Assembly: GCA_945923475.1 (NCBI GenBank) | Contig: CAMELE010000012.1 | Location: 1 to 52,189 of the forward strand | Length of the DNA: 52,189 nt | Source: an uncultured Mollicutes bacterium | Lineage (GTDB): Bacteria > Bacillota_I > Bacilli_A > Acholeplasmatales > Anaeroplasmataceae | Reading direction: 5' to 3' | Shown: in pieces, positions 14,477 through 31,623 of the stretch | How positions within the stretch are numbered: position 1 is the first letter of the stretch | Layout of the letters: each line of letters begins with the position of its first letter | The notes under the pieces: generated by a model | Database searches by the model: none | What the model was told of the DNA's origin: nothing | What the model saw: only the letters and a program-made list of their open reading frames with translations | Program-made: the position numbers and the translations under genes

Positions 14477-15211
14477 TTATCTCTTATAAGTCATTAATGC
14501 TCTTGTAATCTCATTGTCTCCTCTTTTTATCAAAAAAGCGATTTGATTATCATTAATTTCTTTCTTGTATATTCTTACTACCTCATCTTCAAAAGCTTCA
14601 TGTATGTAAGATATTTCTATATCTGTTACCATTACACTTCGATAAAAGCTTACAGGCATACTATTTATTAAAAATTTAATATAGCTTACATTATTGACAT
14701 GACCAGAATAATCAATTTCTGTTGGACGCATTTTCTCTTCATATACAAAATCAAGCTCAGAAAATTGAATTGTATTTCTCTTGGCATTTTCCTTATAACG
14801 ACAAGGTGCAGTATCCATATCTGCTGGATATCCAATGTCTTCTAGTTTTTTAACAATTCTAGTATTTATGTCTACTGGGCATATTTCTGATTTACAATAA
14901 AACAATTCTTCATCATTGTGGGTAAAGCCTGTTTCCATTTCGAATAGATATGAGCTCTTTTTAGTTGTATATGATAAAGCCTCAATTTCTTCATTAAAAT
15001 TAGGTAATCTATTAAAATGAAGCTTATGCTTAAGCACTACTAAAACTGCATTATTTCTATTACAAATAACTGAGTTATCAAAGCTATATTTTGAGAAAAA
15101 TTCAGTAACCATATTTTGAGTTATATAGCACGCATTTATAATTCCTAAGCGCAAATTAAAATCAACACTTGAGAAATCAATCTTATATTTTTCTTTATGC
15201 TCGTATTTCAT
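14477..15211 (-). CDS. Acyl-ACP thioesterase
   Basis: Acyl-ACP thioesterase of the plant FatA/bacterial type (PF01643), which releases free fatty acids from ACP. It is a double hot-dog protein of 244 residues: first half with NMVTEFFSKYSF...LHFNRLPNFNEEIEALSYT, second half with the motif EIDYSGHVNNVSYIKF that carries the family Asp and His-Asn-Asn. The ATG at 15211 follows AGGGTGAT by 5 bases; a TTG one codon earlier is less likely. As the last gene of the operon it suggests that products leave the cluster as free acids. Confidence 0.88.
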   Translation of the reverse strand: MKYEHKEKYKIDFSSVDFNLRLGIINACYITQNMVTEFFSKYSFDNSVICNRNNAVLVVLKHKLHFNRLPNFNEEIEALSYTTKKSSYLFEMETGFTHNDEELFYCKSEICPVDINTRIVKKLEDIGYPADMDTAPCRYKENAKRNTIQFSELDFVYEEKMRPTEIDYSGHVNNVSYIKFLINSMPVSFYRSVMVTDIEISYIHEAFEDEVVRIYKKEINDNQIAFLIKRGDNEITRALMTYKR

Positions 15212-15222
15212 CAAAAATCACC

Positions 15223-15924
15223 CTAATCTAAAAGTGCACCCTTTATATCAATTTCATCACTTTTTATCGTAATTGACTCATTTAAGTTTGTTGCAAACAA
15301 ATACCCTTCATCCGTTATAGCTTTAGTAGTATAAATCATATCATGATATTTTATTCTCCGATTAAGTATAATGCTATATTCCTGATATTGCTGAATAATC
15401 GTGTCCCATGATTCATTTAATAACTTTTCATAATTATTAAGAATTGCATCTATCATTTTATCATTTGATACCTTAGCATATTCAAGAACTCCCGCACCAT
15501 CAAAATCAATATGTGGATTCATATTTAAGCCAATTCCCACAATTGAGCATTCATATTTTGATGAGTATTCATCCTCTATTAAAATTCCAGCCAGTTTTTT
15601 TGAATCAATATATACATCATTAGGCCATTTTATACCCGCATTAATGCCAAAGTTTTTTAATGCAAGTATAATAGCAAGTGGTGCAATTATCTGATTCTTA
15701 TGGGATTTTTTAAATAAAATAGACATGATTACATCATCTTTAGATTCCCATACTCGATTGTAGCGACCTCGCCCCTTAGTTTGACGTTTCGCGACTAAGC
15801 AATCCATATCACTAAAATATTGATAATTTTCTTTGAAAAAATCATTAGTTGATCCTATTTCATCAACCCTATACATTCTAAAGTTGTTATTAAAGGAGTA
15901 ATTATCTAATCGAATATTATCCAT
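15223..15924 (-). CDS. birA: Biotin--[acetyl-CoA carboxylase] ligase
   Basis: Attaches biotin to the biotin carboxyl carrier protein through biotinyl-AMP. The 233-residue protein has the adenylate/biotin motif KRQTKGRGRYNRVWES and GIKWPNDVYIDSKKLAGILIE. It lacks the N-terminal helix-turn-helix of bifunctional BirA, so it should not act as a repressor. Its substrate accB is in the same operon. Start ATG immediately follows the fabD stop. Confidence 0.93.
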   Translation of the reverse strand: MDNIRLDNYSFNNNFRMYRVDEIGSTNDFFKENYQYFSDMDCLVAKRQTKGRGRYNRVWESKDDVIMSILFKKSHKNQIIAPLAIILALKNFGINAGIKWPNDVYIDSKKLAGILIEDEYSSKYECSIVGIGLNMNPHIDFDGAGVLEYAKVSNDKMIDAILNNYEKLLNESWDTIIQQYQEYSIILNRRIKYHDMIYTTKAITDEGYLFATNLNESITIKSDEIDIKGALLD

Positions 15925-15925
15925 T

Positions 15926-16831
15926 TTACTTTTTTAAAGCTTCAAAACAAGCCTTTAATCCTTCAACATTTGAAACATTGTAAACAGCTACATCCTTAGA
16001 TGTTTTCTTGATAAAGCTTGATAAGGTAGCACCAGGTCCTATTTCCACAAACGTATCTACACCTTGAGCTATCATATAGCGGATAGAGTCTTCAAAATAT
16101 ACACTATGACAAATCTGTTGTTGCAAGATATCATTTAGATTTTCATTCATTTCTTTACCACTAACGTTATAAACAATCTTATACGCAGGCTTATTTGGTG
16201 TATATTTATCAAGTTCAGCACGTAGTTCAACTGAAGCTTCATTTAAAAGTGATGAGTGGAAAGCTCCTGATACATTTAATGGTAATGCCCTTCTTGCACC
16301 TGCAGCCAATAGTTTAGGGCATGCTTCATCGATAGCCTCTGCTTGACCAGTTATAACGATTTGGCCAGGGCAGTTATAGTTTGCAATTTCGCATACACCA
16401 TTAACATCCTTGATTGTATTTAAGATAATCTCGCGGTCAAGACCAATAATTGCGGCCATCTTTGTTGTACCAAGTGGTAATGCATTTTGCATAATATTAC
16501 CACGCTTAGTAATAATTTTAATTGCATCCTCTATTGACCAAACATTAGCAAATGCCAAAGCACTATATTCACCAAGTGATAGACCACAAGCATATTCTGG
16601 TTCAATTCCGTTATCCTTTAAAACACTTGCAATTGCATATGAAGTAAGTAGCATAGCCTTTTGTGCATATGCAGTTTGGTTTAAAACTCCGGCTTTATCC
16701 TCGAAGCAAAGCTCTTTAATTTCATCGAATTTATCATACAAAGCCGCTACTGATGGATATGCATCATAAAAGTCCTTCCCCATTCCAACTGCTTGAGCAC
16801 CTTGGCCAGCAAAACAAAATCCAATTTTCAT
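15926..16831 (-). CDS. fabD: Malonyl CoA-acyl carrier protein transacylase
   Basis: Transfers malonyl from CoA to ACP. About 301 residues, with FCFAGQGAQAVGMG, the serine nucleophile elbow GLSLGEYSAL, Arg in KRGNIMQ, catalytic His in SGAFHSSLL, and VEIGPGATL. The ATG at 16831 (MKIGFCF) is preferred over that at 16843: GGAAG lies 5 bases upstream, whereas the upstream ATG abuts its AAAGGG. Confidence 0.95.
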   Translation of the reverse strand: MKIGFCFAGQGAQAVGMGKDFYDAYPSVAALYDKFDEIKELCFEDKAGVLNQTAYAQKAMLLTSYAIASVLKDNGIEPEYACGLSLGEYSALAFANVWSIEDAIKIITKRGNIMQNALPLGTTKMAAIIGLDREIILNTIKDVNGVCEIANYNCPGQIVITGQAEAIDEACPKLLAAGARRALPLNVSGAFHSSLLNEASVELRAELDKYTPNKPAYKIVYNVSGKEMNENLNDILQQQICHSVYFEDSIRYMIAQGVDTFVEIGPGATLSSFIKKTSKDVAVYNVSNVEGLKACFEALKK

Positions 16832-16847
16832 TTTTTCTTCCATCCCT

Positions 16848-17762
16848 TTAACTAATTTTACGATATTTTTGATATCTACGCTCTAATAATTCGTCTGTTG
16901 AAGAGGCAGATAATTCATTCAATTTATTAATAAGACTTGATTTTAAATTGCTAACAAAATCATCTGAAAGATATTTAATTCCTCCAAGAGGCTCTTTGAT
17001 AATTTCATCAACAATACCATATTCTTGCAAGTCCTTACTAGTCATCTTCATCATTTCAGCTGCATCCTCAACACTTACAGTGTCTTTAAATAAGATAGAT
17101 GCGAAGCCTTCTGGTGATAATACTGAATAAACAGCATTTTCAAACATATAAATGTAATCAGAAACTGTAAGTGCTAGCGCACCACCTGATCCACCCTCTG
17201 ATAATACAATCGCAATTACTGGAACCTTAAGCTGCGAAAACTCCATAAGATTTCTTGCGATTGCACGTGCTTGACCACGTTCCTCAGCTCCACGACCTGG
17301 ATAAGCTCCTGATGTATCTACTATCGTAATAATAGGTCTATTAAACTTTTCGGCTTCATGAGCTAATCTTAAAGCCTTTCGAAAGCCCTCTGGTGAAGTC
17401 ATACCAAAGTTACGCTTGATACTTTCACTAATGTTAGTTCCCTTAGCTTGAGCAATAACTGTAACTGGCATATCACCTAACATTCCAATACCTGCAATGA
17501 TACTTTGATCATCTGCATAATATTGATCACCATGTAGCTCATAAAAATCCGTAATTAACTTATTAATAAGCATTTTTGCTTTAACTCTTTTTGCACTTCT
17601 AGCAATTGATACGCGATCCCATGCAGATAGATTCTTATATGTTTCTTCCTTTAATGCGTGTAGTTCAGAAGATACAACCCTAAATTCCATTGAATTTGGA
17701 TCAAGGCTTAACAAACGAGCTTCTAGCTCTTCAATTTGACGTTCATTCTTTTCTAATATCAT
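16848..17762 (-). CDS. accA: Acetyl-CoA carboxylase carboxyltransferase subunit alpha
   Basis: Alpha half of the carboxyltransferase that moves CO2 from carboxybiotin to acetyl-CoA to form malonyl-CoA. The 304-residue protein has a coiled N-terminus (LEKNERQIEELEARLLSL) and the crotonase-fold motifs IITIVDTSGAYPGRGAEERGQ and VLSEGGSGGALAL. It lies one base from accD, as expected for the two halves of one enzyme. Confidence 0.96.
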   Translation of the reverse strand: MILEKNERQIEELEARLLSLDPNSMEFRVVSSELHALKEETYKNLSAWDRVSIARSAKRVKAKMLINKLITDFYELHGDQYYADDQSIIAGIGMLGDMPVTVIAQAKGTNISESIKRNFGMTSPEGFRKALRLAHEAEKFNRPIITIVDTSGAYPGRGAEERGQARAIARNLMEFSQLKVPVIAIVLSEGGSGGALALTVSDYIYMFENAVYSVLSPEGFASILFKDTVSVEDAAEMMKMTSKDLQEYGIVDEIIKEPLGGIKYLSDDFVSNLKSSLINKLNELSASSTDELLERRYQKYRKIS

Positions 17763-17763
17763 A

Positions 17764-18642
17764 TTATCTATAATTATGAAGTCTTAAAAGCTTACTTAAG
17801 GTAGACTTCATATCCTTTCTTTCTACAATATTATCAATATATCCTTTTTCAAGTAGGAATTCTGATGTTTGGAATTCCTTTGGTAAAACTTCCTTAATTG
17901 TTTTTTCAATTACACGCTTTCCTGCAAAGCCTATTAATGTTTTAGGCTCTGCCAAAGTAATATCTGCAAGGGAAGCAAATGAAGCACTTACTCCACCTGT
18001 AGTAGGGTCAGTTAAAACTGCAATATATAATTCTTTTTCGCATAGTTTTGCGACTGCTTGAGATGTTTTAGCCATTTGGAATAAAGAGATAATTCCCTCT
18101 TGCATACGGGCTCCTCCTGAGCAAGTAAACATGATAACAGGTAAATGCTCCTTTAAACCAAGCTCGCATAAAGATGCAATCTTCTCACCACATACGCTAC
18201 CCATTGATCCCATAATAAAATGACTATCCATGACACCAACGAGTGCTCTAATCCCATCAATTTTACCATCAACTGTAATAATTGATTCATCGATTTGAGT
18301 TTCAGCCTGTGCTTTGTTTAGCTTATCCTTATATCCTGGGAAATCAAGATGACGCTCTTTTATATCATAAAATAATTCTGTATACCCCTCGTCCATAATC
18401 ATGCTAAGTCTTTCCTTTGCGTATAGCCTTGCATTATAACCACAAGAAGGGCAAACCTTAAAAGCGTTGATGTAATCCTCTTTAAAAAGATTTTTACCAC
18501 AGCTTGGACATTTACACATTAAATCCTCAGGAATTTCTTTTGGAGAATCATTATCATCTTTTTTTCTTAAATTTAATTCTTCAAGTAATGAGTTAAATTC
18601 ATTAATTTCTTCTTTTCGCTTATTGAATACGTTGTTTTGCAT
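17764..18642 (-). CDS. accD: Acetyl-CoA carboxylase carboxyltransferase subunit beta
   Basis: Beta half of the carboxyltransferase. The four-cysteine zinc ribbon is intact (CPSCGK...CPSCGYN), followed by the crotonase domain with IMFTCSGGARMQEGI and LTDPTTGGVSASFA. The ATG at 18642 is preferred: AAAGGAG lies 10 bases upstream, while the ATG at 18651 is only one base from it. The gene overlaps the end of accC by about 23 bases in another frame, so the two are translationally linked. Confidence 0.95.
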   Translation of the reverse strand: MQNNVFNKRKEEINEFNSLLEELNLRKKDDNDSPKEIPEDLMCKCPSCGKNLFKEDYINAFKVCPSCGYNARLYAKERLSMIMDEGYTELFYDIKERHLDFPGYKDKLNKAQAETQIDESIITVDGKIDGIRALVGVMDSHFIMGSMGSVCGEKIASLCELGLKEHLPVIMFTCSGGARMQEGIISLFQMAKTSQAVAKLCEKELYIAVLTDPTTGGVSASFASLADITLAEPKTLIGFAGKRVIEKTIKEVLPKEFQTSEFLLEKGYIDNIVERKDMKSTLSKLLRLHNYR

Positions 18643-19990
18643 TTTGCTCATACTCCTTTAAAAATTCCTCACAGAAGCCTGTGTCATAATATCCCAATAT
18701 AAATGTTGGATGATGTAATAAAACATAATGAAATTCTGTTGTTGTTTTTACACCTTCAATAATTAATTCCTCAAGTGCAGCACGCATCTTACGAATACAT
18801 TCAAGTCTTGTTGGCGCAAATACAATTAGCTTCATAATCATTGAATCATAATATGGTGGAATTTCATATCCAGCATAAACTGCTGTATCTACTCTAACGC
18901 CCTTACCTCCTGGAATATGTAAGAAGGTAATTTTACCAGGGTCAGGTCTAAAATCATTTTTCATATCCTCTGCATTGATACGGCATTCCATAGCACATCC
19001 AAGGATTTGGACATCCTCCTGCTTGTATGGAAGCTGAAGACCATATGCTGTTTTAATCATAGTTTTAACAATATCAACATTACAAATTGATTCTGTTACT
19101 GAATGCTCAACCTGAATACGAGTGTTCATTTCAATGAAATAGAAGTTTTCGTCCTTATCAACTAAAAATTCAATTGTACCTACAGAATCGTAATTTACAT
19201 ACTTACATGCTTTTACAGCAGCCTCATGAAGTCCTTCTCGTAATTCCTTTGAAATACATTGACATGGAGCCTCCTCTAGCATTTTTTGCTTACGACGCTG
19301 AAGTGAACAGTTTCTTTCATATAGATGAATACAATTACCATGCTTATCGCACATCATTTGAACCTCGATGTGACGAGGATTAACAATAAATTTTTCTACG
19401 TAAAGCTCATCATTAGCAAAGAACTTTTTAGCCTCTTCCTTAGCCTCAGTATATAATGGAGCAAATTCAGCATCAGATGCTACCATTCTAATACCTTTTC
19501 CTCCACCACCGGCTGAAGCCTTAATTAAAACCGGATATCCGATTTCTCTTGCAATTTGATTTCCTTCCTCAAGTGATACAGCACGATATGAACCAGGAAC
19601 AATAGGAACTCCCGCTTCCTTCATTATTTTAATGGCCTCTGATTTATTACCCATTAATTCCATAACGTGAGGATTAGGTCCAATCCATTTAATTCCACAT
19701 CTTTCGACCATTGAGGCAAAGATTGGATTTTCAGATAAGAATCCAAATCCAGGGTGGATAGCATCACAACCAGTAAGACAAGCAATACTTAAAATGTTTT
19801 CCATATTTAAGTATGAATCACTACATGAAGCACCACCTACACAATAAGCTTCGTTTGCTAGTTCACGGTGAAGAGCATTTTGATCGGCAGTAGAGTAAAT
19901 TGCAACTGTTTTTATTCCCATTTCCTTACAAGCACGAATAATTCTTACTGCAATTTCTCCACGATTTGCAATTAGTATTTTTTTAAACAT
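18620..19990 (-). CDS. accC: Acetyl-CoA carboxylase biotin carboxylase subunit
   Basis: ATP-grasp enzyme that carboxylates biotin on AccB. The 456-residue protein has KILIANRGEIAVRIIRAC, the glycine-rich ATP lid KASAGGGGKGIRMV, the carboxylase motif RRKQKMLEEAP and EMNTRIQVEHSVTE. It begins 3 bases after accB. Confidence 0.97.
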   Translation of the reverse strand: MFKKILIANRGEIAVRIIRACKEMGIKTVAIYSTADQNALHRELANEAYCVGGASCSDSYLNMENILSIACLTGCDAIHPGFGFLSENPIFASMVERCGIKWIGPNPHVMELMGNKSEAIKIMKEAGVPIVPGSYRAVSLEEGNQIAREIGYPVLIKASAGGGGKGIRMVASDAEFAPLYTEAKEEAKKFFANDELYVEKFIVNPRHIEVQMMCDKHGNCIHLYERNCSLQRRKQKMLEEAPCQCISKELREGLHEAAVKACKYVNYDSVGTIEFLVDKDENFYFIEMNTRIQVEHSVTESICNVDIVKTMIKTAYGLQLPYKQEDVQILGCAMECRINAEDMKNDFRPDPGKITFLHIPGGKGVRVDTAVYAGYEIPPYYDSMIMKLIVFAPTRLECIRKMRAALEELIIEGVKTTTEFHYVLLHHPTFILGYYDTGFCEEFLKEYEQNAKQRIQ

Positions 19991-19992
19991 AA

Positions 19993-20415
19993 TTACTCAC
20001 CTATCGCAAATAGCTTTGTACCAAATTCAACCATTTGGCCTTCCTTAACTAATACTTCCTTAACTATACCATCAACTGGTGCTGTAATTTCATTCATTAC
20101 CTTCATAGCTTCAACAATACACATTTTATCACCCTTTGACACTCTTTGACCAACCTCTACAAAAGGCTTAGCCTCTTGAGATGGTGATTGATGGAATGTA
20201 CCAACAAGTGGTGCTGTAACAAATGTAAGATCCGCCTCATCAGCAGTTTCGCCTGAATCAGCGCCTGTTGTTACATTTAAAGCTTGAGGAACTACATTTA
20301 CAACTTGAGTTGCCTTTTCTAATTTAATCTTTATATTATCAATCTCTAAATCAATTGTACTAACACTTGATTTTTCAAACATTTTAATTATTTTTTCTAC
20401 ATCTTCTAATTTCAT
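19993..20415 (-). CDS. accB: Biotin carboxyl carrier protein of acetyl-CoA carboxylase
   Basis: Carries biotin between AccC and AccA/AccD. The 140-residue protein has an N-terminal helix, a linker rich in Ala, Glu and Thr, and a C-terminal biotinyl domain with the biotinylated lysine in VEAMKVMNEI. The substrate of the BirA encoded in the same operon. Confidence 0.96.
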   Translation of the reverse strand: MKLEDVEKIIKMFEKSSVSTIDLEIDNIKIKLEKATQVVNVVPQALNVTTGADSGETADEADLTFVTAPLVGTFHQSPSQEAKPFVEVGQRVSKGDKMCIVEAMKVMNEITAPVDGIVKEVLVKEGQMVEFGTKLFAIGE

Positions 20416-20430
20416 TTTATTAACTCCTAA

Positions 20431-20661
20431 CTATTTTTGAATTTTTGACTCAACAAGCTTACAAACATCATCAACTGTTTTTAAAGCTGTCATTTCTTCC
20501 CATTCAACCTTTATGTCAAACGTTGTTTCTAATGATAAAATTAACTCAACAGCATATAATGAATCGATGCGAAGATCCTCTTTAAGTCTCGCGTCTTTTG
20601 TAACACTTTCATAATCAACATTAGCTGTTTCTACAAGCATATCTCTAATTTTTTCAAACAT
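20431..20661 (-). CDS. Acyl carrier protein 1
   Basis: A 76-residue acyl carrier protein; the phosphopantetheine serine is in LRIDSLYAVELIL. It sits next to accB in the supply half of the operon. It differs clearly from ACP2 at the operon head (DSLYAVEL versus DSIDSIEL), so the two probably have different partners. It is the more likely general fatty-acid ACP, though its DSLYAV is not the textbook DSLDTV. Confidence 0.92.
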   Translation of the reverse strand: MFEKIRDMLVETANVDYESVTKDARLKEDLRIDSLYAVELILSLETTFDIKVEWEEMTALKTVDDVCKLVESKIQK

Positions 20662-20672
20662 AAAATAGCCTC

Positions 20673-21410
20673 CTATTTACCATTACGCTCTTGTTCCCAA
20701 AATTTATTTAATAAAACCTTATATGCCCCTTCTGAGAATGGTGGCTTTTTCAAATTACTTATTTCTTCATCTGTTAAACTACCATTTTTCCCAAATGAAA
20801 CACCAGCTTCATAAAACTTTTGTAAGAAGCGTTCTTGTCTATCTTCCATCTTAAGCTCAATTAATGTCTTAAGCTGTGGGCAAAGAATTGCAGTATAATG
20901 ACCCTTTCCACATATTGCATCATATTGAGTGACAAGTGAATCGAATACATTATCAGCAGCTGTATATGCACAGCTTGCAATAATAATGAACTTCTTATCG
21001 CCCATTTCAAAACGATGACCATGGAATGAAGCTCCATCAACTGGAGCCTTTTGTCCTTCATATGTTGACATAAAAGGCATCATTCTATCTGTAAATACTT
21101 TCATCGTGCCAGGCATTCCAAAGAAATACAAGGGATATGATTCAATAAATACATCACATTCCATTATTTTTTCTTTTATCATATTAGCATCGTCATTTTT
21201 AATGACACATTCGCCAGGAGTTTTTCCCCAACAAGACAAGCATCCCAAGCATGGTTTAATATTTAAACTATTTATCCAAATGTATTCAACACAAGCCCCT
21301 GTTTCTTGTGCAAGTCCATCAACAAATGCCTTTGTAGCAGTTAATGTTGATGAATGTTCCCCTTTAGGACTACCATTTAAAACTAATATTTTTTTGATTT
21401 TAGAAGGCAT
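20673..21410 (-). CDS. NADPH-dependent FMN reductase/flavodoxin-fold oxidoreductase
   Basis: A 245-residue flavodoxin-fold protein with the FMN phosphate loop LVLNGSPKGEHSST and the pattern ESYPLYFFGMPGTMKVFTDRMMPF of the NADPH-dependent FMN reductase group. Cysteines in CLGCLSCWGKTPGEC are like those of iron-sulfur flavoproteins. It starts on the stop codon of fabZ (TAATG), so it is an integral part of the operon. Its role is unknown. Since no FabI, FabK, FabL or FabV is encoded in this cluster, a part in enoyl reduction or in modifying the product is conceivable, but that is inference from position only. Confidence 0.8.
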   Translation of the reverse strand: MPSKIKKILVLNGSPKGEHSSTLTATKAFVDGLAQETGACVEYIWINSLNIKPCLGCLSCWGKTPGECVIKNDDANMIKEKIMECDVFIESYPLYFFGMPGTMKVFTDRMMPFMSTYEGQKAPVDGASFHGHRFEMGDKKFIIIASCAYTAADNVFDSLVTQYDAICGKGHYTAILCPQLKTLIELKMEDRQERFLQKFYEAGVSFGKNGSLTDEEISNLKKPPFSEGAYKVLLNKFWEQERNGK

Positions 21411-21862
21411 TACTCTTCACTTCCATAAATGGTAGATTTTTCCACCATTGTGAATGTCATTGAACCCTTTGAGTAAATTTTATCTTCAACCTTAACTACA
21501 GCATCAAACGAAGTTAAAGGTCCAGCACTTCTTGTTTTAGTAACTGTAATATCAAGCTGATATCCAGGTATTACTGGCTTAATAAATTTGAAATTATCAA
21601 CCTTAAGTAATACATATATTTTATCTGGATCTGTGCCATCATCTTCCATTACTAATGAGCATAGCTGTGCGCATGCTTCTACGATTAATACACCAGGCAT
21701 TATAGGTGCATCAGGAAAATGTCCCATAAAATATGGTTCATTTACTGATACAGACTTAATACCTCTTGCGCTTACGTTTGGTTCAAGTTCAATAACTCTT
21801 TCTATCATTTGAAAAGGGGGACGTTGTTTAATTCTTTTGTTAATATCATTGATATTCATCAT
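21410..21862 (-). CDS. fabZ: 3-hydroxyacyl-ACP dehydratase
   Basis: Hot-dog dehydratase that forms trans-2-enoyl-ACP. The 150-residue protein has the FabZ active-site segment GHFPDAPIMPGVLIVEA, with catalytic His and Glu present. It overlaps fabG by 4 bases. Confidence 0.95.
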   Translation of the reverse strand: MMNINDINKRIKQRPPFQMIERVIELEPNVSARGIKSVSVNEPYFMGHFPDAPIMPGVLIVEACAQLCSLVMEDDGTDPDKIYVLLKVDNFKFIKPVIPGYQLDITVTKTRSAGPLTSFDAVVKVEDKIYSKGSMTFTMVEKSTIYGSEE

Positions 21863-22590
21863 AGTGATAGTCCTCCATCAATTGTGATTGTTTGACCAGT
21901 AATGTATTTAGACTCTTCTGAAGCTAAGAAGCTTACAAGTGCCGCAACATCTTCACCCTTACCTAAGGTATGCATAGGAATAGCCTTTAGATATTCCTCC
22001 TTCTTTTCCTCAGGAATTGCGTCAAGCATTTCTGTTTGAATAAATCCTGGAGCTATAGCATTAACTCTAATACCATATGCTGATAATTCCTTAGCCATAG
22101 TTTGAGTCATTGAGTTTACAGCACCCTTTGTTGCACCATAAACGCTTTGGCCTGGAAGTGAGAACTTACCAGCAACTGATGACATATTGATTATTACACC
22201 AGATTTTTTTCTAAACATTTTAAGTGCTACTTGTTGAGCACAATAGAAATATCCCTTAACATTTAGTTCAAAACAATCATCTAATGACTTTTGAGACATC
22301 ATTAATAAGAATTCATCACGAACAATACCAGCGTTATTTACAAGCACATCGATTGTTCCATATTCCTTAAATACATCTCTTACCATCGCTTTTACTTCAT
22401 CAAGCTTAGACACATCAGCCTTATAAATCATTCCAGAACCACCCTCTGCAATGATTTGAGCTAAAGTATCTTCAGCTGGACCATTTGAATGACTATAATT
22501 TACAACTACAGTGTAGCCATCCTTAGCAAGACGTAATGCACAAGCACGTCCAATACCTCTAGAGGCACCTGTTACAATTGCAACCTTCAT
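21859..22590 (-). CDS. fabG: 3-oxoacyl-ACP reductase
   Basis: Short-chain dehydrogenase that reduces 3-ketoacyl-ACP with NADPH. The 243-residue protein has the cofactor motif VTGASRGIGRA, NNAG (LVNNAGIV), the catalytic Ser and YxxxK (MSSVAGKF...SVYGATKGAV), and the end TGQTITIDGGLSL. The ATG has a TAGGTGA ribosome binding site. Confidence 0.96.
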   Translation of the reverse strand: MKVAIVTGASRGIGRACALRLAKDGYTVVVNYSHSNGPAEDTLAQIIAEGGSGMIYKADVSKLDEVKAMVRDVFKEYGTIDVLVNNAGIVRDEFLLMMSQKSLDDCFELNVKGYFYCAQQVALKMFRKKSGVIINMSSVAGKFSLPGQSVYGATKGAVNSMTQTMAKELSAYGIRVNAIAPGFIQTEMLDAIPEEKKEEYLKAIPMHTLGKGEDVAALVSFLASEESKYITGQTITIDGGLSL

Positions 22591-22599
22591 TTATTTCAC

Positions 22600-24990
22600 C
22601 TACTTTTTTAATACTACTGCACAGTATGATCCACCAGAACCATAGGCAATAACTAATACATTTTCAAGTTTAGCTGAATCAATGCTAACATTTTCTATCT
22701 TATCAAGACTAATAGCATATCCATTTTCTTTCTTGATATCTCCTGATAGCATCATTGCAGAATGAGCACAAGCTAGAGCAGCTGATGCAGCTCTACCTTC
22801 ACCAGTTCTTTCCTTAACACTAAATACAGGAATATTTACTAAATTTTCTTTAAATACACGTCTTAAGCTTTGAAGCTCTTCATTGTCTACAATATGGTTA
22901 CCATTTGCGAATCCAGAAATACAAGATATATCCTCAGGCTTAAGATTAGCGTCTGCTAAAGCCTCTAAAATAGCCTTGTCTAAAGCCTCTGAAGAACCTT
23001 CAAGAGTTCCAAACTTAACATTTTGATGAGTCATACCATAACCAACTACTTGACAATACTTCTTAGCATTACGAGCATTTGCAGATGATGCTGATTCACA
23101 AACGATAGTTGTAGAACCATCAGCAAGTACAAAGCCTTTAGCATTATCATATGGTTTAATTACAGAATCAGATACATAATTAAGCTTTGAATATAATTCA
23201 GAAATAATCTCAATATTTTCATCAGTACCACAAGCAAGAACAACTTCCTCTTGACCTTGCTCAATAATATTCTTAGCATATGCAACTGATGCTAAACCAG
23301 ATTGAGCACCATTTGTGATTGTAACATTATATCCCTTAATACCTGAGCAAATTGATAAATATCCACCTGCAGCGTTATATACTGTATTAGGGAAGTTAAA
23401 TGCAGATCCAGCCGCATTACCCTTTTCAGCAATATTCTCTTCAAATAAGCAGCCCATTCCTAAAGCTCCTTCTGAAGTACCTACTACTATACCAACCTTT
23501 GTGGCATTTTCATCATTTAATTCATAGCCAGCATTCTTAAGTGCAGCCATACCAGATACAGCTTGAAGCTTAGAGAAGTTATCAAGCTTACGGTAGAAAG
23601 CCATCTTCAATCCATTTTCATCAAAATCAGGCTTATCAACTACTGAATTAACACAAGATGAACTAACAGTTTCATTAGCTTCTACCTTGCTAATATAGTT
23701 TTCAACTCCATTTCCAAGAGGAGAAACAATACCGAAACCAGTAATATATACAGGCTCCTTAGCCTCAGGTAATACTACATTACCCTTGTCCTTTGAAAAT
23801 ACGATACTAGCATTATTTCCACCAAACGCAAATGAGTTAGACATAACTGTCTTTAATTCCTTCTTGCGACTCTTATTAGGAACAAAATCAATCTTACCAG
23901 CCTTTTCCTTTAAAGCTTCTAGATCTTCATCTGAATAGCCTAAAGTTGCAGGGATAACATTTTGGGTTAAAGCCTTAATTGCAAATACAGCCTCAATAGC
24001 TCCTGCAGCACCTAAACAGTGACCAACCATTGGCTTTGTTGATGATACACTTAAATTATCATTAATTGGATCAAAAATTGTATGAAGTGATAGGAATTCA
24101 GCATTATCATTTTTAGCTGTACCAGTACCATGAGCATTAATATAACCAATTTCAGAACCATCAATTCCTGAATTCTTTAAAGCCCAACGAATCGCATTCA
24201 TTTGACCTTCTCCATCTTCTCTTGGAGCAGTGATATGGTGAGCATCACTAGATACACCAGAACCTAAAACCTCACAATACATTTTAGCACCACGAGCCTT
24301 AGCATGCTCATATGACTCAACAATTACAATACCTGAACCTTCACCAAGAGTAATACCTGTACAATGGTTGAATGATGAACAAGGATTTGAATCAAGTGCA
24401 TGTAAAGCAAGGAATCCTGCATATGGAACTGAAGCAAATGCATCAGCACCACCAGCAACTACAACATCAGCCTTGCCAGCACGAATCAAATCACAAGCAT
24501 AAGCAATTGAAATAGTACCTGCAGCACATGCATTAGCAATATTTGTAACACATCCACCAGCATTTAAATCACCAGCAACCTGAGAAGCAATTGCAGAAAT
24601 TGGCATCTTCTTTACATCAGAAGCATCTCTTCCATTTTTATAGTAGTGTTCGATTGATACAACACCACCAACACAAGAACCAATAATAACACTTACTCTT
24701 GTGTCTCCACCAAAATCACCTAAACCAGCATCAGATACAGCTTCTCTTGCAGCCTTGATACATAATTTAGATACACGATCAAGATCATCACCCTTTGATT
24801 CAATGTTCTTTAAATCAGAAGGTACTTCTGCAGCAAGCTTAGCATAGCAATCAGTTGTATCTACGCTTTTAGTTTCTTTAATCCCTGATACAGAGTTAAT
24901 CGCATTTGTAAAGCATTCTTCTACATTATTTCCAATTGCACTGATCATACCAAGACCAGTTACAACGCATCTATTTTTATCGTTTGTCAT
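22600..24990 (-). CDS. Tandem ketosynthase: active FabF domain fused to an inactive KS (chain-length-factor-like) domain
   Basis: The protein (796 residues from the preferred ATG at 24990, which has AAAGGA upstream) holds two FabF-like thiolase folds in tandem. Domain 1 (about 5-400) is a complete ketosynthase: Cys155 in NACAAGT, His287 in NAHGTGT, Lys319 and His324 in STKPMVGHCLGAAG. Domain 2 (about 410-796) aligns throughout, but the nucleophile is Gln563 (NGAQSGLAS; codon at 23302-23304), the first His is Phe694 and the second is Glu731, with the Lys kept. It therefore cannot condense. Gln in place of Cys is the signature of chain-length factors and of decarboxylating KSQ domains. The fusion probably forms an internal pseudo-heterodimer. 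It sits between ACP2 and fabG. Ordinary FabF is about 410 residues. Confidence 0.93.
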   Translation of the reverse strand: MTNDKNRCVVTGLGMISAIGNNVEECFTNAINSVSGIKETKSVDTTDCYAKLAAEVPSDLKNIESKGDDLDRVSKLCIKAAREAVSDAGLGDFGGDTRVSVIIGSCVGGVVSIEHYYKNGRDASDVKKMPISAIASQVAGDLNAGGCVTNIANACAAGTISIAYACDLIRAGKADVVVAGGADAFASVPYAGFLALHALDSNPCSSFNHCTGITLGEGSGIVIVESYEHAKARGAKMYCEVLGSGVSSDAHHITAPREDGEGQMNAIRWALKNSGIDGSEIGYINAHGTGTAKNDNAEFLSLHTIFDPINDNLSVSSTKPMVGHCLGAAGAIEAVFAIKALTQNVIPATLGYSDEDLEALKEKAGKIDFVPNKSRKKELKTVMSNSFAFGGNNASIVFSKDKGNVVLPEAKEPVYITGFGIVSPLGNGVENYISKVEANETVSSSCVNSVVDKPDFDENGLKMAFYRKLDNFSKLQAVSGMAALKNAGYELNDENATKVGIVVGTSEGALGMGCLFEENIAEKGNAAGSAFNFPNTVYNAAGGYLSICSGIKGYNVTITNGAQSGLASVAYAKNIIEQGQEEVVLACGTDENIEIISELYSKLNYVSDSVIKPYDNAKGFVLADGSTTIVCESASSANARNAKKYCQVVGYGMTHQNVKFGTLEGSSEALDKAILEALADANLKPEDISCISGFANGNHIVDNEELQSLRRVFKENLVNIPVFSVKERTGEGRAASAALACAHSAMMLSGDIKKENGYAISLDKIENVSIDSAKLENVLVIAYGSGGSYCAVVLKK

Positions 24991-25065: not shown

Positions 25066-25308
25066 TTACATATTAGATACAATATAAGCAGCTAATGTAT
25101 TGATGTTTTGGAAATTTTCCTTAGCAACACCAGACATTGAAACACCAAAAGTTTCATCAATGTAAGTAATCAATTCGATTGAATCGATTGAATCAAGTCC
25201 AATACCATCACCAAATAGCATTGTATCGAATTCTAATTCTGATTCATCAACACCAAGGTTGTTTACAAAAAATTCCTTTAATTTTTCCTTAATTTCTAAT
25301 TCTGTCAT
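25066..25308 (-). CDS. Acyl carrier protein 2
   Basis: An 80-residue acyl carrier protein with the phosphopantetheine serine in GIGLDSIDSIELI. The preceding LFGDGIGLDSID segment is of the kind found in ACPs dedicated to aryl-polyene and related KS/CLF systems more than in housekeeping AcpP. It is the first gene of the operon, next to the tandem ketosynthase, which suggests they work together. The ribosome binding site is AAAGGAGA. Confidence 0.9.
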   Translation of the reverse strand: MTELEIKEKLKEFFVNNLGVDESELEFDTMLFGDGIGLDSIDSIELITYIDETFGVSMSGVAKENFQNINTLAAYIVSNM

Positions 25309-25446: not shown

Positions 25447-25989
25447 ATGAGCAATATAACCGGTTTACAAAAAGCAAACGCCGCTTCTAATAAAATCACG
25501 AAAGATTCTATTAAGGAAGCATTTCTAGTTTTACTTGTTAAAAAAGATATCAGTAAAATTACAGTTACCGAAATTGTTTCCAAGGCTGGTGTATCTAGAA
25601 CTGCATTTTATAAAAATTATAAAACTAAAGAAGATATACTACACGATATCGTCGGTCCCTTTTTACAGGCTATTGATAATAAGCTTGCAAGAAAAGGCTC
25701 AACAAGTCTTTATGAGTGGTTTTTAATCTTCTTTTTAGAGGTTAAAAAGAACTCACGCGTATTCTCCTCTATTGCTCCCGCTTTAATCGAAAATGTTCTT
25801 TTAAAGCTTAAGAGTAAAAATGAAAATTTACACAATGAATACCAACGTAACATTTTTGAAAGTTCTATTGGCTATGTTATCTATGCATGGCTAAGCAATC
25901 CAAAAGAAACTCCTGAAGAAATAGCTACGCTTTGTAGCAAAATCTACATAGGGTTTGATGAGATTTTTTCCTTTTTAAAAAAGGAATAG
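25447..25989 (+). CDS. TetR/AcrR family transcriptional regulator
   Basis: A 180-residue regulator with an N-terminal TetR helix-turn-helix (IKEAFLVLLVKKDISKITVTEIVSKAGVSRTAFYKNYKTKEDIL, about residues 20-65; conserved VSRTAFYKNYKTKEDIL at its end) and a helical ligand/dimer domain. It is divergent from the fatty-acid operon with 138 bases between, which holds the TGACAAAGTCA palindrome. By position it is likely to control that operon in response to an acyl ligand; this is inference. The ATG has a strong AGGAGG ribosome binding site. Confidence 0.9.
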   Translation: MSNITGLQKANAASNKITKDSIKEAFLVLLVKKDISKITVTEIVSKAGVSRTAFYKNYKTKEDILHDIVGPFLQAIDNKLARKGSTSLYEWFLIFFLEVKKNSRVFSSIAPALIENVLLKLKSKNENLHNEYQRNIFESSIGYVIYAWLSNPKETPEEIATLCSKIYIGFDEIFSFLKKE

Positions 25990-26358: not shown

Positions 26359-27234
26359 TCATTTATTATTTTTTGGCTTATAAGCTAAATGATTAATAGC
26401 TTCATATAAATCTGGTCTTCTATCTCTAAAAATCCCCCAGCTATAACGTTTCTTATTGCTATAATCTAAGTCTAACTCCTCAATAATAAAGCCTTCTTCA
26501 GTTCTTGACATTTCCTTAAGCTTATCACCCTCGCATGATGCAATAAATGAAGACCCATAGAATGTCATACTTGAATTATCTTCTTTTTCCTCACCTATTC
26601 TATTGGCAGCTACAACGGGAATAATATTTGCAGCGGCATGCCCCTTCATTACATTTTGCCAGTGATTCTTAGAATCAATTGGTAAAACTGGCTCTGAGCC
26701 AATTGCAGTTGGATACAAGATAATCTCTGCTCCCATAAGCGTTAGGCATCTTGCAAGTTCAGAGAACCATTGATCCCAGCATATTCCTATTCCTACCTTA
26801 CCGAACTTTGTATCATAAACCTTAAATCCCGTATCACCAGGAGAAAAATAGAACTTTTCTTCATAGCATTCACCTGTTGGAATATGGCTTTTACGATATA
26901 ATCCTAAATCTGTACCATCCGCGTCAAACACAACAAGTGAATTAAAATATGAATTGCCTGCTCGTTCAAAGAATGAAATTGGTAAAACAACGCCAAGCTC
27001 TCGAGCAAGGCTTTGAAATGTTTTTAGCAATTGAGAATTTTCATATTCCTCTGCCAAACTAAAATAATCATATTTTTCCTTTTGACAAAAATATGGGGTT
27101 TTAAATAATTCAGGTAACAAGATAATATTTGCACCTTTTGCTGCAGCATCTCTAACATAAGAGATAGCCTTTGATATATTCTTTTCAATGTCCCATGACA
27201 TAGACATTTGAACTGCAGACACCTTAATCTTCAT
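26359..27234 (-). CDS. aguB: N-carbamoylputrescine amidase
   Basis: Nitrilase-fold hydrolase that converts N-carbamoylputrescine to putrescine, CO2 and ammonia. The Glu-Lys-Cys triad is visible in LLPELFKTPYF, YRKSHIPTG and GIGICWDQWF. The length of 291 is typical. It overlaps aguA by 11 bases, and aguA overlaps speA, forming a complete agmatine route. Confidence 0.95.
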   Translation of the reverse strand: MKIKVSAVQMSMSWDIEKNISKAISYVRDAAAKGANIILLPELFKTPYFCQKEKYDYFSLAEEYENSQLLKTFQSLARELGVVLPISFFERAGNSYFNSLVVFDADGTDLGLYRKSHIPTGECYEEKFYFSPGDTGFKVYDTKFGKVGIGICWDQWFSELARCLTLMGAEIILYPTAIGSEPVLPIDSKNHWQNVMKGHAAANIIPVVAANRIGEEKEDNSSMTFYGSSFIASCEGDKLKEMSRTEEGFIIEELDLDYSNKKRYSWGIFRDRRPDLYEAINHLAYKPKNNK

Positions 27235-28321
27235 TTTTTACGACTCCTTCTGGAATTTGCATTGTAACGCAATGAATGTTACCACCAGCAACTAATATAT
27301 GTCTTGAATTAATTGGATAAATTGTTTTATCAGGATAGATTTGCTTAAATAATCTAATTGCAGACTTGTCCTCCTCAACTCCAAATTGTGGTACAAGTAC
27401 AAATTTCTCTCCCTGATAGAAATTAACATATGATGCAGCTAGTCTATCTCCTTCTTTTCTTGGTTTTGCGCCAGGAGCTTGACTTATTTTACTAGCTTCC
27501 TCTTTTGTTAATGTTAAATATGGTGTAGGAAGCTTACTCATAATTACATAAAATGGTAATTTACCAAGAACCTCTAAGCCCTCATAAGAGTATTGATGTT
27601 GTAAATCTTGTTCATCAAGTGTATTCGCAAGTAATATTGTTTGTTCATCTAAGAAGCAAGCAAAATTATCGATATGCTCATTTGTCTCATCATTTACAAT
27701 TCCGTGTGGCAGCCAAACAATATGACGCATGCCTAAATAATCCTTCAATGTAACCTCAATACCCTGTTTTGAAAGATATGGATTTCTACCCCTACTAAGT
27801 AAGCAAGCCTCTGTTGTCATTAATACTCTTTGTCCGTTAGTATGAATACTTCCACCCTCGAGGATAAAATCCTTTCTACTATAATAATCGACACCTAAGA
27901 AATCAGCTAATCTTGCTCCAAGAGAGTTATCATCCTCATAATCATCATAAAGTCCATCAACGCTTCCACCCCAGGCATTAAAGCCAAAATCAACAGCTCT
28001 GACGTCACCCTCATTATTTGTTACAAATATTAACGTATTATCTCTAGCCCATGAATCATTGTATGGAAGCCTTAATATCTCTACGTTTTCAATTTTAAAA
28101 GCCTCAATATCCTCTTCTTTAATCTTAGGATTGATAACTAAAATAACTCTTTCATATAAAGATATAGCCTTAACTATTTCTAAAAATTCAGGCATTGCAT
28201 CCTTTCCACCATTTTCCCAGGTATCCTCGCGATAAGGTAAAAGCACAATAGTACCACTATGCTTTTCCCACTCTGCAGGCATAGTAAAGCCATCTTTTAA
28301 AGGTGTGTTTTTTAGTCTCAT
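27224..28321 (-). CDS. aguA: Agmatine deiminase
   Basis: Guanidino-group hydrolase that turns agmatine into N-carbamoylputrescine and ammonia. The 365-residue protein has the family start MPAEWEKHSGTIVLLPYRED, NDSWARDN, the histidine motif ILEGGSIHTNG and the catalytic cysteine in VAGGNIHCVTMQ. The ATG at 28321 has AAGGAGG 10 bases upstream; the TTG at 28330 would lie too close. It overlaps the neighbour on the downstream side. Confidence 0.96.
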   Translation of the reverse strand: MRLKNTPLKDGFTMPAEWEKHSGTIVLLPYREDTWENGGKDAMPEFLEIVKAISLYERVILVINPKIKEEDIEAFKIENVEILRLPYNDSWARDNTLIFVTNNEGDVRAVDFGFNAWGGSVDGLYDDYEDDNSLGARLADFLGVDYYSRKDFILEGGSIHTNGQRVLMTTEACLLSRGRNPYLSKQGIEVTLKDYLGMRHIVWLPHGIVNDETNEHIDNFACFLDEQTILLANTLDEQDLQHQYSYEGLEVLGKLPFYVIMSKLPTPYLTLTKEEASKISQAPGAKPRKEGDRLAASYVNFYQGEKFVLVPQFGVEEDKSAIRLFKQIYPDKTIYPINSRHILVAGGNIHCVTMQIPEGVVKNED

Positions 28322-28326
28322 AAAAA

Positions 28327-29778
28327 TCAATCCTCCTTAACAACACTCACAGTCCCATCTTGATATTTTGATAATACAGTCGCTCCTGTTTGCTTGTATT
28401 TTAAGATTCTCTCAATTATAGCATCATTAAATATTTCTCCCGGAATAATTAAAGGAATTCCTGGAGGATAAACCATAATTGATTCTTTAGATATATATCC
28501 TTTAGCCTCAGTTAGTTTTATTCTTTGTGAATCTAATTGATAAGCCTCTCTTGGTGAGAGCCTTGATTGAGGGAAGTTTTGATCATAATGATATTTCGGA
28601 TATTTTATATCTTCCTTATAATATTTATCAGAAATATCCTTAAGAGCCCAAATTAAATGGTCTATATGACTCTTCTTTGAGCCAATAGCAATTATACCTA
28701 ATAAAGTATAAGCCTCGGCTAATTCCATTTGAATTTGATACTCATCTCTTAGCATATTATATAATTCAAATCCTGTTAAATTAATATTATCAAGCTCTAT
28801 TACAAGTTTTGTGTCATCATAGTCAAAAACCTGATGTTTTAAGAAATGCTCTCTTCCGCACGCTTTAAAGCCTGGAATTCTATCAATTTCCTTACGAGCA
28901 TAATTTGCTAAATTAACAGTGTCATTTAATTGAACCTGTCCAGCTGTAGCCATATATTTTCTAGCCGCATCAAGTGATGCCATCAAAAGCGCTGATGGAG
29001 ATGTAGTATTAATCATGGCCAATGCTTCCTTAATTTCATCACGAGAAACTCTATCACCCTTTTTAAGCAAAACACTTGCTTGAGTCAAAGCTCCAAGTGT
29101 TTTATGAAGTGAAACCGCACTTAAATCTGCTCCACACTCCATAGCGCTATATGGACCATAATAATTAAAGCCAAAATGAGCTCCATGGGCTTCATCTACA
29201 ATAACAATCATATTATTTGCGTGAGCTATTGCCACTATCTTTTTAAGATCTGCTACAGCTCCAAAATAGGTCGGATTTATAACAAAAACTGCTTTAGCAT
29301 CAGGATTTGCCGTAATAGCCTCTTCATATGAAGCTACACTTGGTTGATTAGCTATTTCTAGCTCTAAATCAAGTTCTGGCATTACGAATATAGGCGTAGC
29401 ACCTGATAAAATTAATGCATTGATAACTGATTTATGACAGTTCCTTGGCAATATTATTTTATCATGTCTTCCCGTTGTTGACAATATAGAAGCCAAAATA
29501 CCAGATGTAGTACCATTAATTAAGAAATACGCCTCATCAGCATTATAAGCCTGTGCCATTAGGGCCTGTGCCTCTTTAATAACTCCATTTGGATGGTTTA
29601 AATTGTCCATCCCTCTTGGCGCGTTTACATCACATTGATAAACCCTATTACCAACTAATGCTTTAAAATCATTTTTTACATTACCCATATGGTGTCCAGG
29701 AACATCAAAGGGAGATATACCTTCTTTTATATAGCTTTTTAATGCGTCTAAATAAGGAGTTTTATTTTGTTCGTCCAT
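28327..29778 (-). CDS. speA: Arginine decarboxylase (Orn/Lys/Arg decarboxylase, aspartate-aminotransferase fold)
   Basis: PLP enzyme that makes agmatine from arginine. The 483-residue protein is like Bacillus SpeA in length, with IVIVDEAHGAHFGF, the Schiff-base lysine in VSLHKTLGALTQASV and the C-terminal IMVYPPGIPLIIPGE. Next to aguA and aguB it is best read as arginine rather than lysine or ornithine decarboxylase. The ATG has TGAGGTATTTG upstream. An IS1182-type element is inserted only 25 bases upstream, so the original promoter is separated from the gene. Confidence 0.92.
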   Translation of the reverse strand: MDEQNKTPYLDALKSYIKEGISPFDVPGHHMGNVKNDFKALVGNRVYQCDVNAPRGMDNLNHPNGVIKEAQALMAQAYNADEAYFLINGTTSGILASILSTTGRHDKIILPRNCHKSVINALILSGATPIFVMPELDLELEIANQPSVASYEEAITANPDAKAVFVINPTYFGAVADLKKIVAIAHANNMIVIVDEAHGAHFGFNYYGPYSAMECGADLSAVSLHKTLGALTQASVLLKKGDRVSRDEIKEALAMINTTSPSALLMASLDAARKYMATAGQVQLNDTVNLANYARKEIDRIPGFKACGREHFLKHQVFDYDDTKLVIELDNINLTGFELYNMLRDEYQIQMELAEAYTLLGIIAIGSKKSHIDHLIWALKDISDKYYKEDIKYPKYHYDQNFPQSRLSPREAYQLDSQRIKLTEAKGYISKESIMVYPPGIPLIIPGEIFNDAIIERILKYKQTGATVLSKYQDGTVSVVKED

Positions 29779-29949: not shown

Positions 29950-31623
29950 ATGGGATATTATACCATAAGAAAAACATTTTTTGTAGACTGCTACACTAGT
30001 AATGTGGAGCAATCACAAAAAATAGACAAATTTTTAGCATTATTAGATAGATCAGGAGCTTGTGATTTACTTAATAGCTTACTGAAAGAAAAACAAAAAA
30101 ATGATACTGATAAAGGAGGAAGACCATCACATAACCCATACAATATGTTAGCATTAATTTTGTTTAATTTTAGTTTTGGGAAAGGTACACTAAGAGACAT
30201 TGAAGACAGCTGTAGATTTGATTTACGTTGTATTTATATTATGCAAGAAGAAAGGCCTAGTCATATGACTTTAGGTAATTTTATAAATGATTATATATTA
30301 CCTAATGCAGGCAAGTTCTTTTCATTAATTACAAAGGCCATTTTTGATGAATGTAATTTAAAAATGGATAAAATGTATCTAGATGGATCTAAGTTTGAAG
30401 CTAACGCAAACAAATATAAATTTGTATGGAAACCAACGAAATTTCATTTAAAACTTTGTGATAAAGTAAGAGATTTATTATTTGAATATAATTTAATTAG
30501 AGGATTACCTAAAACAGGTATGATAAGTTCTCAGGAAATAGCTAATAAATTACTTGAATTAAATGACATTTTAAAAAACTTGGATTTAACAAATAAAACA
30601 AGCAAAAAACATATTAAAAATTACGACTTATTAGTTGAATATTTACAAAAGAGTTTAGAATATGAGGAGAAAGAGAGGATTTGTGGTCCAAACAGAAACT
30701 CTTATTATAAAACTGATAATGACGCGACAGCAATGTGTTTGAAAGAAGATTATTATTCTGGTTTAGGTAGTAATATGCATGCAGGGTATAACACACAAAT
30801 AAGTGTTATAAACGGATTGGTTTCTGCATATTTAGTAACTCAATCTAGAAATGATATAGATGATTTTACACTTTTATTAGATAAACATTACGAATTTTAC
30901 CATTCTTATCCTAAATCTTTATGTGCTGATGCAGGATATGGTTCTTATGAAAATTATAAATATTTAGACGTTCATAATATTAAAAATTTCGTAAAATACT
31001 TCACATGGCAAGGCAATGTATCCGGACAAAACCCTAGTCAATATAGACTTGATACAAATAATGAAACAATAATATGTTTAAATGGAAATATTGGATATAA
31101 ATGTGATGATGTTACTTGGCATCATAAAAAAGCTAATTCAATATTCTATAAAATTGAAGGATGTAATAATTGTATGTTTTCATTGTTTTGTAAAAGATTT
31201 ATGAAAAATAAAGATGAAAATTTTAAAATATTTGAAGTAACATTACAACTTCAAAAATACATTCAAGAAGCCGAGGATAATCTTCTATCAATTGAAGGGA
31301 TAGAGATGAGAGTTAATCGTTCTTCTCAGGTAGAAGGGGCATTCGGTGTTATTAAACAAGATTTTCAATATGAGCGTTTTAGAAGACGCTCATTACCAAA
31401 AGTTTCATTAGAATTTATGTTGGTATGTTTAGGATATAACATTAGAAAATTATTTAAATATTATGATGGGAACGCTAAATTTGATTATTGGAAGGTTCCC
31501 AAAAATATTACACCCGAAAAATTTAAGAAACCTAGTGCTAAAAGATTATCAAAAAAAGCTTCTAAAATTAAACAAAAGTCTGTTAATCAAGAAGCTAAAG
31601 ATAATTATAAATATGCAAAATAA
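29950..31623 (+). CDS. IS1182-family transposase
   Basis: DDE transposase of 557 residues. Seen: the N-terminal GGRPSHNPYNMLALILF block, the first Asp in MYLDGSKFEANANKYKFVW, a second Asp in LCADAGYGSYENY, a cysteine cluster CNNCMFSLFC, and the Glu in SSQVEGAFGVIKQDF. All family motifs are in frame and undamaged, so it is probably active. There is no clear Shine-Dalgarno before the ATG; a hairpin (GTAAAAT...ATTTTAC, about 29919-29948) lies directly upstream and may limit translation. Confidence 0.93.
   Translation: MGYYTIRKTFFVDCYTSNVEQSQKIDKFLALLDRSGACDLLNSLLKEKQKNDTDKGGRPSHNPYNMLALILFNFSFGKGTLRDIEDSCRFDLRCIYIMQEERPSHMTLGNFINDYILPNAGKFFSLITKAIFDECNLKMDKMYLDGSKFEANANKYKFVWKPTKFHLKLCDKVRDLLFEYNLIRGLPKTGMISSQEIANKLLELNDILKNLDLTNKTSKKHIKNYDLLVEYLQKSLEYEEKERICGPNRNSYYKTDNDATAMCLKEDYYSGLGSNMHAGYNTQISVINGLVSAYLVTQSRNDIDDFTLLLDKHYEFYHSYPKSLCADAGYGSYENYKYLDVHNIKNFVKYFTWQGNVSGQNPSQYRLDTNNETIICLNGNIGYKCDDVTWHHKKANSIFYKIEGCNNCMFSLFCKRFMKNKDENFKIFEVTLQLQKYIQEAEDNLLSIEGIEMRVNRSSQVEGAFGVIKQDFQYERFRRRSLPKVSLEFMLVCLGYNIRKLFKYYDGNAKFDYWKVPKNITPEKFKKPSAKRLSKKASKIKQKSVNQEAKDNYKYAK

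Follow-up and report, generated by a model that had tools for sequence, protein, structure and literature searches.

The order KS-CLF, i.e. an active ketosynthase (KS) followed by a chain-length factor (CLF), is known for PfaC of the PUFA synthases and for HglC-type secondary-lipid synthases (PMC3098273). The KS/CLFs of actinorhodin and tetracenomycin are known to prime themselves by decarboxylating malonyl; in acetate-primed KS/CLFs the first step is decarboxylation of malonyl held on the cysteine of the KS, and the KS/CLF channel, which forms where the two subunits meet, restricts how many extensions take place (PMC12664062). A KS with an inactive partner, together with KR, DH and free ACPs, has been described for aryl polyene (ApeO-ApeC), ishigamide (Iga11-Iga12) and cispentacin (AmcF-AmcG) synthesis (PMC8358021, PMC10698177). 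Acetyl-ACP is accepted as a starter by E. coli FabB and pneumococcal FabF (PMC8666670).

The window analysed here is the whole stretch of 52,189 nucleotides from an uncultured Mollicutes bacterium of the Anaeroplasmataceae. A single open frame of 796 residues on the minus strand (22600-24990) encodes a KS-CLF didomain fusion. Two N and two C stretches of the ketoacyl-synt families (Pfam) form two complete ketosynthase units, in agreement with the two full KS folds of the initial annotation. Domain 1 (D1) spans approximately residues 1-405 and Domain 2 (D2) residues 410-796, with 27% identity over 374 aligned residues. The features are as follows.

14477-15214, minus strand: acyl-ACP thioesterase (FatA-like)
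15223-15924, minus strand: BirA-like biotin ligase (named from sequence)
15926-16843, minus strand: FabD, malonyl-CoA:ACP transacylase
16848-17762, minus strand: AccA, carboxyltransferase alpha; the sole AccA found in the genome
17764-18651, minus strand: AccD, carboxyltransferase beta (named from sequence)
18620-19990, minus strand: AccC, biotin carboxylase (named from sequence)
19993-20415, minus strand: AccB, biotin carboxyl carrier protein (named from sequence; conserved in related operons)
20431-20661, minus strand: acyl carrier protein 2, 76 aa
20673-21410, minus strand: flavodoxin-fold flavoprotein with a CxxCxxCW...C motif, iron-sulfur flavoprotein-like
21410-21862, minus strand: FabZ-type dehydratase
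21859-22590, minus strand: FabG-type ketoreductase
22600-24990, minus strand: KS-CLF didomain fusion, 796 aa; ATG start at 24990, with an MTxxKNRC start conserved in relatives
22603-23766, minus strand: D2, chain-length-factor-like dead KS; Ala562 (nucleophile position) at 23305-23307, Gln563 at 23302-23304 and, at the other catalytic positions, Phe694 at 22909-22911, Lys726 at 22813-22815 and Glu731 at 22798-22800
23776-24990, minus strand: D1, active ketosynthase; Cys155 at 24526-24528, His287 at 24130-24132, Lys319 at 24034-24036 and His324 at 24019-24021
25066-25308, minus strand: acyl carrier protein 1, 80 aa, with GLDSIDSIEL, directly upstream of the fusion
25447-25989, plus strand: TetR-family regulator, divergent

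The two ACP genes of this operon were overlooked in the initial annotation. Of 28 related loci, 27 have a small ACP upstream of the fusion and the other (L027) is cut by its contig end; FabG, FabZ and the flavoprotein lie downstream in most of them. Two Treponema loci (L017 and L020) have the ACP and fusion without adjacent FabG or FabZ. The CxxCxxCW...C motif was invariant in all 25 flavoprotein sequences and is of the kind seen in iron-sulfur flavoproteins; on this sequence likeness the protein is a possible Fe-S flavoprotein and a candidate for an unrecognised enoyl reductase or an electron donor. Beyond the regulator, genes for a carbon-nitrogen hydrolase, an agmatine deiminase-like and an arginine/lysine decarboxylase-like protein (26359-29778, minus strand) likely form a putrescine pathway, and a transposase-like gene (29950-31623, plus strand) lies upstream of these polyamine genes.

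As PfaC and HglC-type synthases contain a covalent KS-CLF, the principle of the fusion is already known, and its initial description as an unfamiliar arrangement was too strong. PfaC (PDB 6riw) and the fusion both carry an active KS and then a dead KS/CLF on one polypeptide. PfaC, however, runs on into the dehydratase domains of a megasynthase, whereas the protein in the window ends after the CLF with no following DH or PfaA/B/D partners, and its ACP, KR, DH and MAT are discrete proteins. The actinorhodin-type KS-alpha/CLF is likewise a pair of active and inactive KSs but is encoded by two separate genes, and KS and partner are also unfused in ApeO-ApeC, Iga11-Iga12 and AmcF-AmcG. What is new is a KS-CLF didomain that stands alone within a dissociated type II operon, accompanied there by a dedicated ACP, KR, DH and Fe-S-type flavoprotein. 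Neither such a didomain in a dissociated synthase nor one as a cell's only detected condensing enzyme was found in a search of openly accessible papers, which also gave nothing relevant to PDB entry 9s5h or to Anaeroplasma fatty acid synthesis.

With a probability of about 0.72, the fusion is a KS-CLF that primes itself and both begins and extends the acyl chains of membrane lipids, the self-priming, the tunnel or chain-length role and the lipid product all being inferred. D1 would be the sole catalytic half, in which the Cys-His-Lys-His set catalyses decarboxylative Claisen condensation. The non-catalytic D2 would fill the place of the other subunit in a KS dimer; as in known CLFs, it would line the distal part of the acyl tunnel and thereby limit chain length. 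The didomain would act with the ACPs, FabG, FabZ and flavoprotein of the cassette and be supplied by the acetyl-CoA carboxylase (ACC) and FabD of the operon. Where FabH is missing, malonyl on Cys155 would most likely be decarboxylated to acetyl by the KS-CLF itself, as in the actinorhodin type. The products would most likely enter membrane lipids. Were this reading right, one group of bacteria from gut and rumen would make its primary membrane lipids with a polyketide-type KS-CLF pair, a dedicated dead domain would set the chain length and FabH would be unneeded.

The supply of starter units was considered across genomes, gene absences resting on family searches of draft genomes and MAGs. The initial annotation reported that fabH was lacking, which holds locally in the window; extension of this absence to the whole genome was rejected, as an ACP-FabH-FabK-FabG-FabF-FabZ operon with a normal FabF is present on a separate contig (C23). 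Coexistence of FabH and a normal FabF in this genome means that self-priming is not required there; wherever FabH and a separate FabF are found within the window's family, the two are present jointly (G000, G410, G398 and G420). Consequently, the idea that D2 explains a missing fabH does not apply to the window's genome, but it does fit eight genomes of a sister genus, Anaeroplasma (genus g2: G388, G072, G265, G402, G415, G399, G397 and G417; six of them at least 96% complete). In these eight the fusion was the only Ketoacyl-synt_C protein detected, and a family search did not find FabH. G388 corresponds to A. bactoclasticum, an assignment made because its coordinates are identical to those of the L011 genome. 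Among fusion-bearing Treponema, none of five genomes had a FabH match, and a separate FabF is present in the single genome inspected for it; another start route must therefore exist there. Since the only AccA of the window's genome lies in the window operon, the ACC encoded there probably feeds both the fusion cassette and the fatty acid synthase (FAS) operon on C23.

A possible, though unlikely, alternative is that the cassette is a highly reducing type II polyketide synthase (PKS)-like system that lacks an enoyl reductase and gives a polyene. The cassette resembles ApeO-ApeC, Iga11-Iga12 and AmcF-AmcG in combining a KS and inactive partner with KR, DH and ACPs; all elements of the highly reducing gene set are present, and a KS-CLF with KR, DH and two ACPs but no classical enoyl reductase is the gene set of aryl polyene and ishigamide synthesis. 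This reading is favoured by the complete separate FAS operon of the window's genome and by four cassette-bearing genomes of the sister genus (G265, G402, G415 and G399; 96-99% complete), in which no FabH, separate FabF, FabK or FabV was detected. FabI searches of Anaeroplasma genomes returned chiefly the cassette FabG, and no other FabI was found in these four. FabK was present in three of the eight fusion-only genomes and lay apart from other fab genes in both of those inspected. L120 and L121 are such orphan FabK genes, distant from other fab genes, in Anaeroplasma-genus genomes. Against a polyene product, the cassette KS is the only one detected in eight genomes, where membrane acyl chains would have to come from it or not be made at all. 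The flavoprotein, moreover, could be the missing reductase. The window operon also differs from highly reducing type II PKSs in having ACC and FabD and no aryl or amino-acid tailoring genes. In Treponema and some Clostridia a PlsC-type acyltransferase and a patatin lie beside the cassette, and PlsX lies beside the fusion in Lachnospira eligens; these neighbours suggest lipid as the destination of the chain and, with ACC and FabD, point to bulk lipid rather than a polyene.

D2 might instead be a mere relic that holds the dimer or serves regulation, with a D1-D1 homodimer acting as FabF, but this is improbable. D1 is FabF-like when taken alone, sharing the catalytic set and overall fold of FabF (KAS II), and the whole fusion exceeds the FabF equivalog cut-off of TIGR03150 (501 versus 493.75 bits), a score that sums both halves; D2 alone scored 162.6 bits, far below the cut-off. 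The FabF equivalog name is misleading for the fusion, which lies hidden under it in current databases. Unlike the fusion, FabF consists of two identical active subunits, and D1 forms a separate clade. In a careful maximum-likelihood tree of KS domains, with topologies compared by p-AU, D1 and D2 each formed one clade (support 100). D1 fell outside FabF and grouped (96/90) with the KS of an adjacent split KS/CLF pair of spirochaete locus L094. D2 grouped with the CLF of the same pair (94/92) and next with Streptomyces CLFs (86/61), an unstarred placement; because long branches come together there, the exact grouping is suggestive rather than proven. The affinity of D2, read with this caution, is thus to CLFs rather than to elongating FabF, and a topology placing D2 with FabF, i.e. 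inside the active FabF clades, was rejected (p-AU 0.012). An internal duplication of D1, which would place D1 and D2 in one clade, was disfavoured but borderline (p-AU 0.044). The simplest history suggested by the sequences is that an existing KS-CLF pair became fused.

The split genes of L094 (1495-3897) have 9s5h_B (457 bits, KS) and 9s5h_C (198 bits, CLF) as their closest solved relatives. The 9s5h/9s5i entry has two chains, of which chain C is a dead KS that lacks the Cys and has a Lys...Gly-Glu signature as in D2; both this entry and the L094 pair comprise two separate proteins, unlike the fusion.

Structure prediction also argued against a relic. An AlphaFold2 model of the fusion (26 relatives in the input) reached a pLDDT of 83.8 and a pTM of 0.91, and its top Foldseek match was the PfaC KS-CLF didomain 6riw (TM 0.78 of the whole query, 921 columns). 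Nearly all other matches listed were single KSs with a TM of ~0.45, so both halves superpose together, as in a KS dimer, and the single-chain model packs like the PfaC KS-CLF. The rmsd to 6riw was 7.4 A, with 17% sequence identity in the fold match, indicating that details differ between the two. Additionally, D2 retains a CLF-style signature of invariant Phe, Glu and Arg. The tree, the PfaC fold match and the pattern of residue loss support the original proposal that the protein is a KS-CLF fusion with a chain-length-factor-like D2.

Very unlikely is a KSQ-type loading function, in which Gln563 of D2 decarboxylates malonyl-ACP and hands the acetyl starter to D1. KSQ loading domains keep the catalytic His for malonyl decarboxylation. 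The active sites were compared in global D1-D2, E. coli FabF-D2 and 57-sequence MAFFT alignments, all of which paired the catalytic Cys with Ala562, the two His with Phe694 and Glu731 and the Lys with Lys726; a HMMER alignment to E. coli FabF gave the same pairing, with Cys opposite Ala562. An ungapped offset of 407, common to all four sites, gave a mean BLOSUM62 score of +1.59 per residue around the site, whereas the offset of 408 needed for Gln563 gave -0.30 and reduced identities from 15 to 6. Cys155, His287, Lys319 and His324 of D1 were invariant wherever read in a family alignment of 29 sequences, bearing out the active D1 site of the initial annotation. For D2, the substitution of both His by Phe694 and Glu731 and the retention of Lys726 had been read correctly, but the replacement of Cys by Gln563 was off by one residue, as Ala562 pairs with Cys155. 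A Gln adjoins the nucleophile position in all Bacillota and Mycoplasmatota copies and FabH was not found in the eight sister-genus genomes, both of which would suit a loading domain. Nevertheless, Gln563 stands one residue beyond the nucleophilic Cys position and is V, I or L in every Treponema copy, where position 562 is Pro, and for these reasons the KSQ idea fails. Phe694 and Glu731, which stand in for the catalytic His, were invariant wherever the residue was present. The KSQ decarboxylase identity of D2 was therefore rejected on its misplaced residue and lost His, and with it the earlier suggestion that D2 makes the acetyl starter.

Position 562 is A, S, P, N or T in relatives and Cys once, in A. 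bactoclasticum (L011), where both His are nevertheless lost. D2 thus has a KS fold from which the nucleophile and His have been lost (A, F and E at the three places); as judged from sequence, it is catalytically dead in every copy, but not through a KSQ substitution. Two CLFs compared with D2 have Gln in one case and Gly in the other at the nucleophile position, and both have Asp, Lys and Arg at the other places, where the fusion has Ala/Phe/Lys/Glu. Columns at least 95% conserved numbered 208 of 403 in D1 versus 85 of 381 in D2. For a self-priming KS-CLF, Gln563 would not be the decarboxylating residue and FabH-free starting would need no role for it.

A scan of genome contigs found the fusion at full length or nearly so in 28 related loci (L004-L031), with hosts among Anaeroplasma and other Acholeplasmatales, Treponema and Clostridia. 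An assembly join or a recent read-through of two tandem genes, for which nothing speaks except the tandem arrangement, was rejected and can be practically dismissed, as the identical join recurs in many independent assemblies and on the complete L. eligens megaplasmid. In L. eligens ATCC 27750 the gene lies on a 627-kb plasmid and is annotated just as a beta-ketoacyl synthase family protein; its D1 groups with the Treponema copies (93/94). The fusion was present in 4 of 392 genomes of the window's phylum, all four in the window's own family, and in 5 of 393 genomes of the Treponema phylum, where one genome has a more distant split pair. Such a scattered distribution over different phyla is suggestive of horizontal transfer. 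Ketosynthases are also matched by short, unannotated records of Listeria phages (e.g. OR848561.1), which probably stem from bacterial DNA present in the phage preparations.

Because the natural heterodimers of KS and CLF are difficult to express, a single-chain KS-CLF is a practical tool. The fusion is also carried on a megaplasmid of a human commensal (L. eligens). A stronger proposal, which is tentative and which we consider rather doubtful, is that in Anaeroplasma the KS-CLF is the cell's only condensing enzyme, priming from malonyl-ACP, elongating to a CLF-set length and taking over from both FabH and FabF/FabB, and that the Fe-S-type flavoprotein is a new enoyl reductase. If true, fatty acid synthases would have a third kind of organisation, namely a type II FAS that follows the KS-CLF logic of polyketide synthesis.
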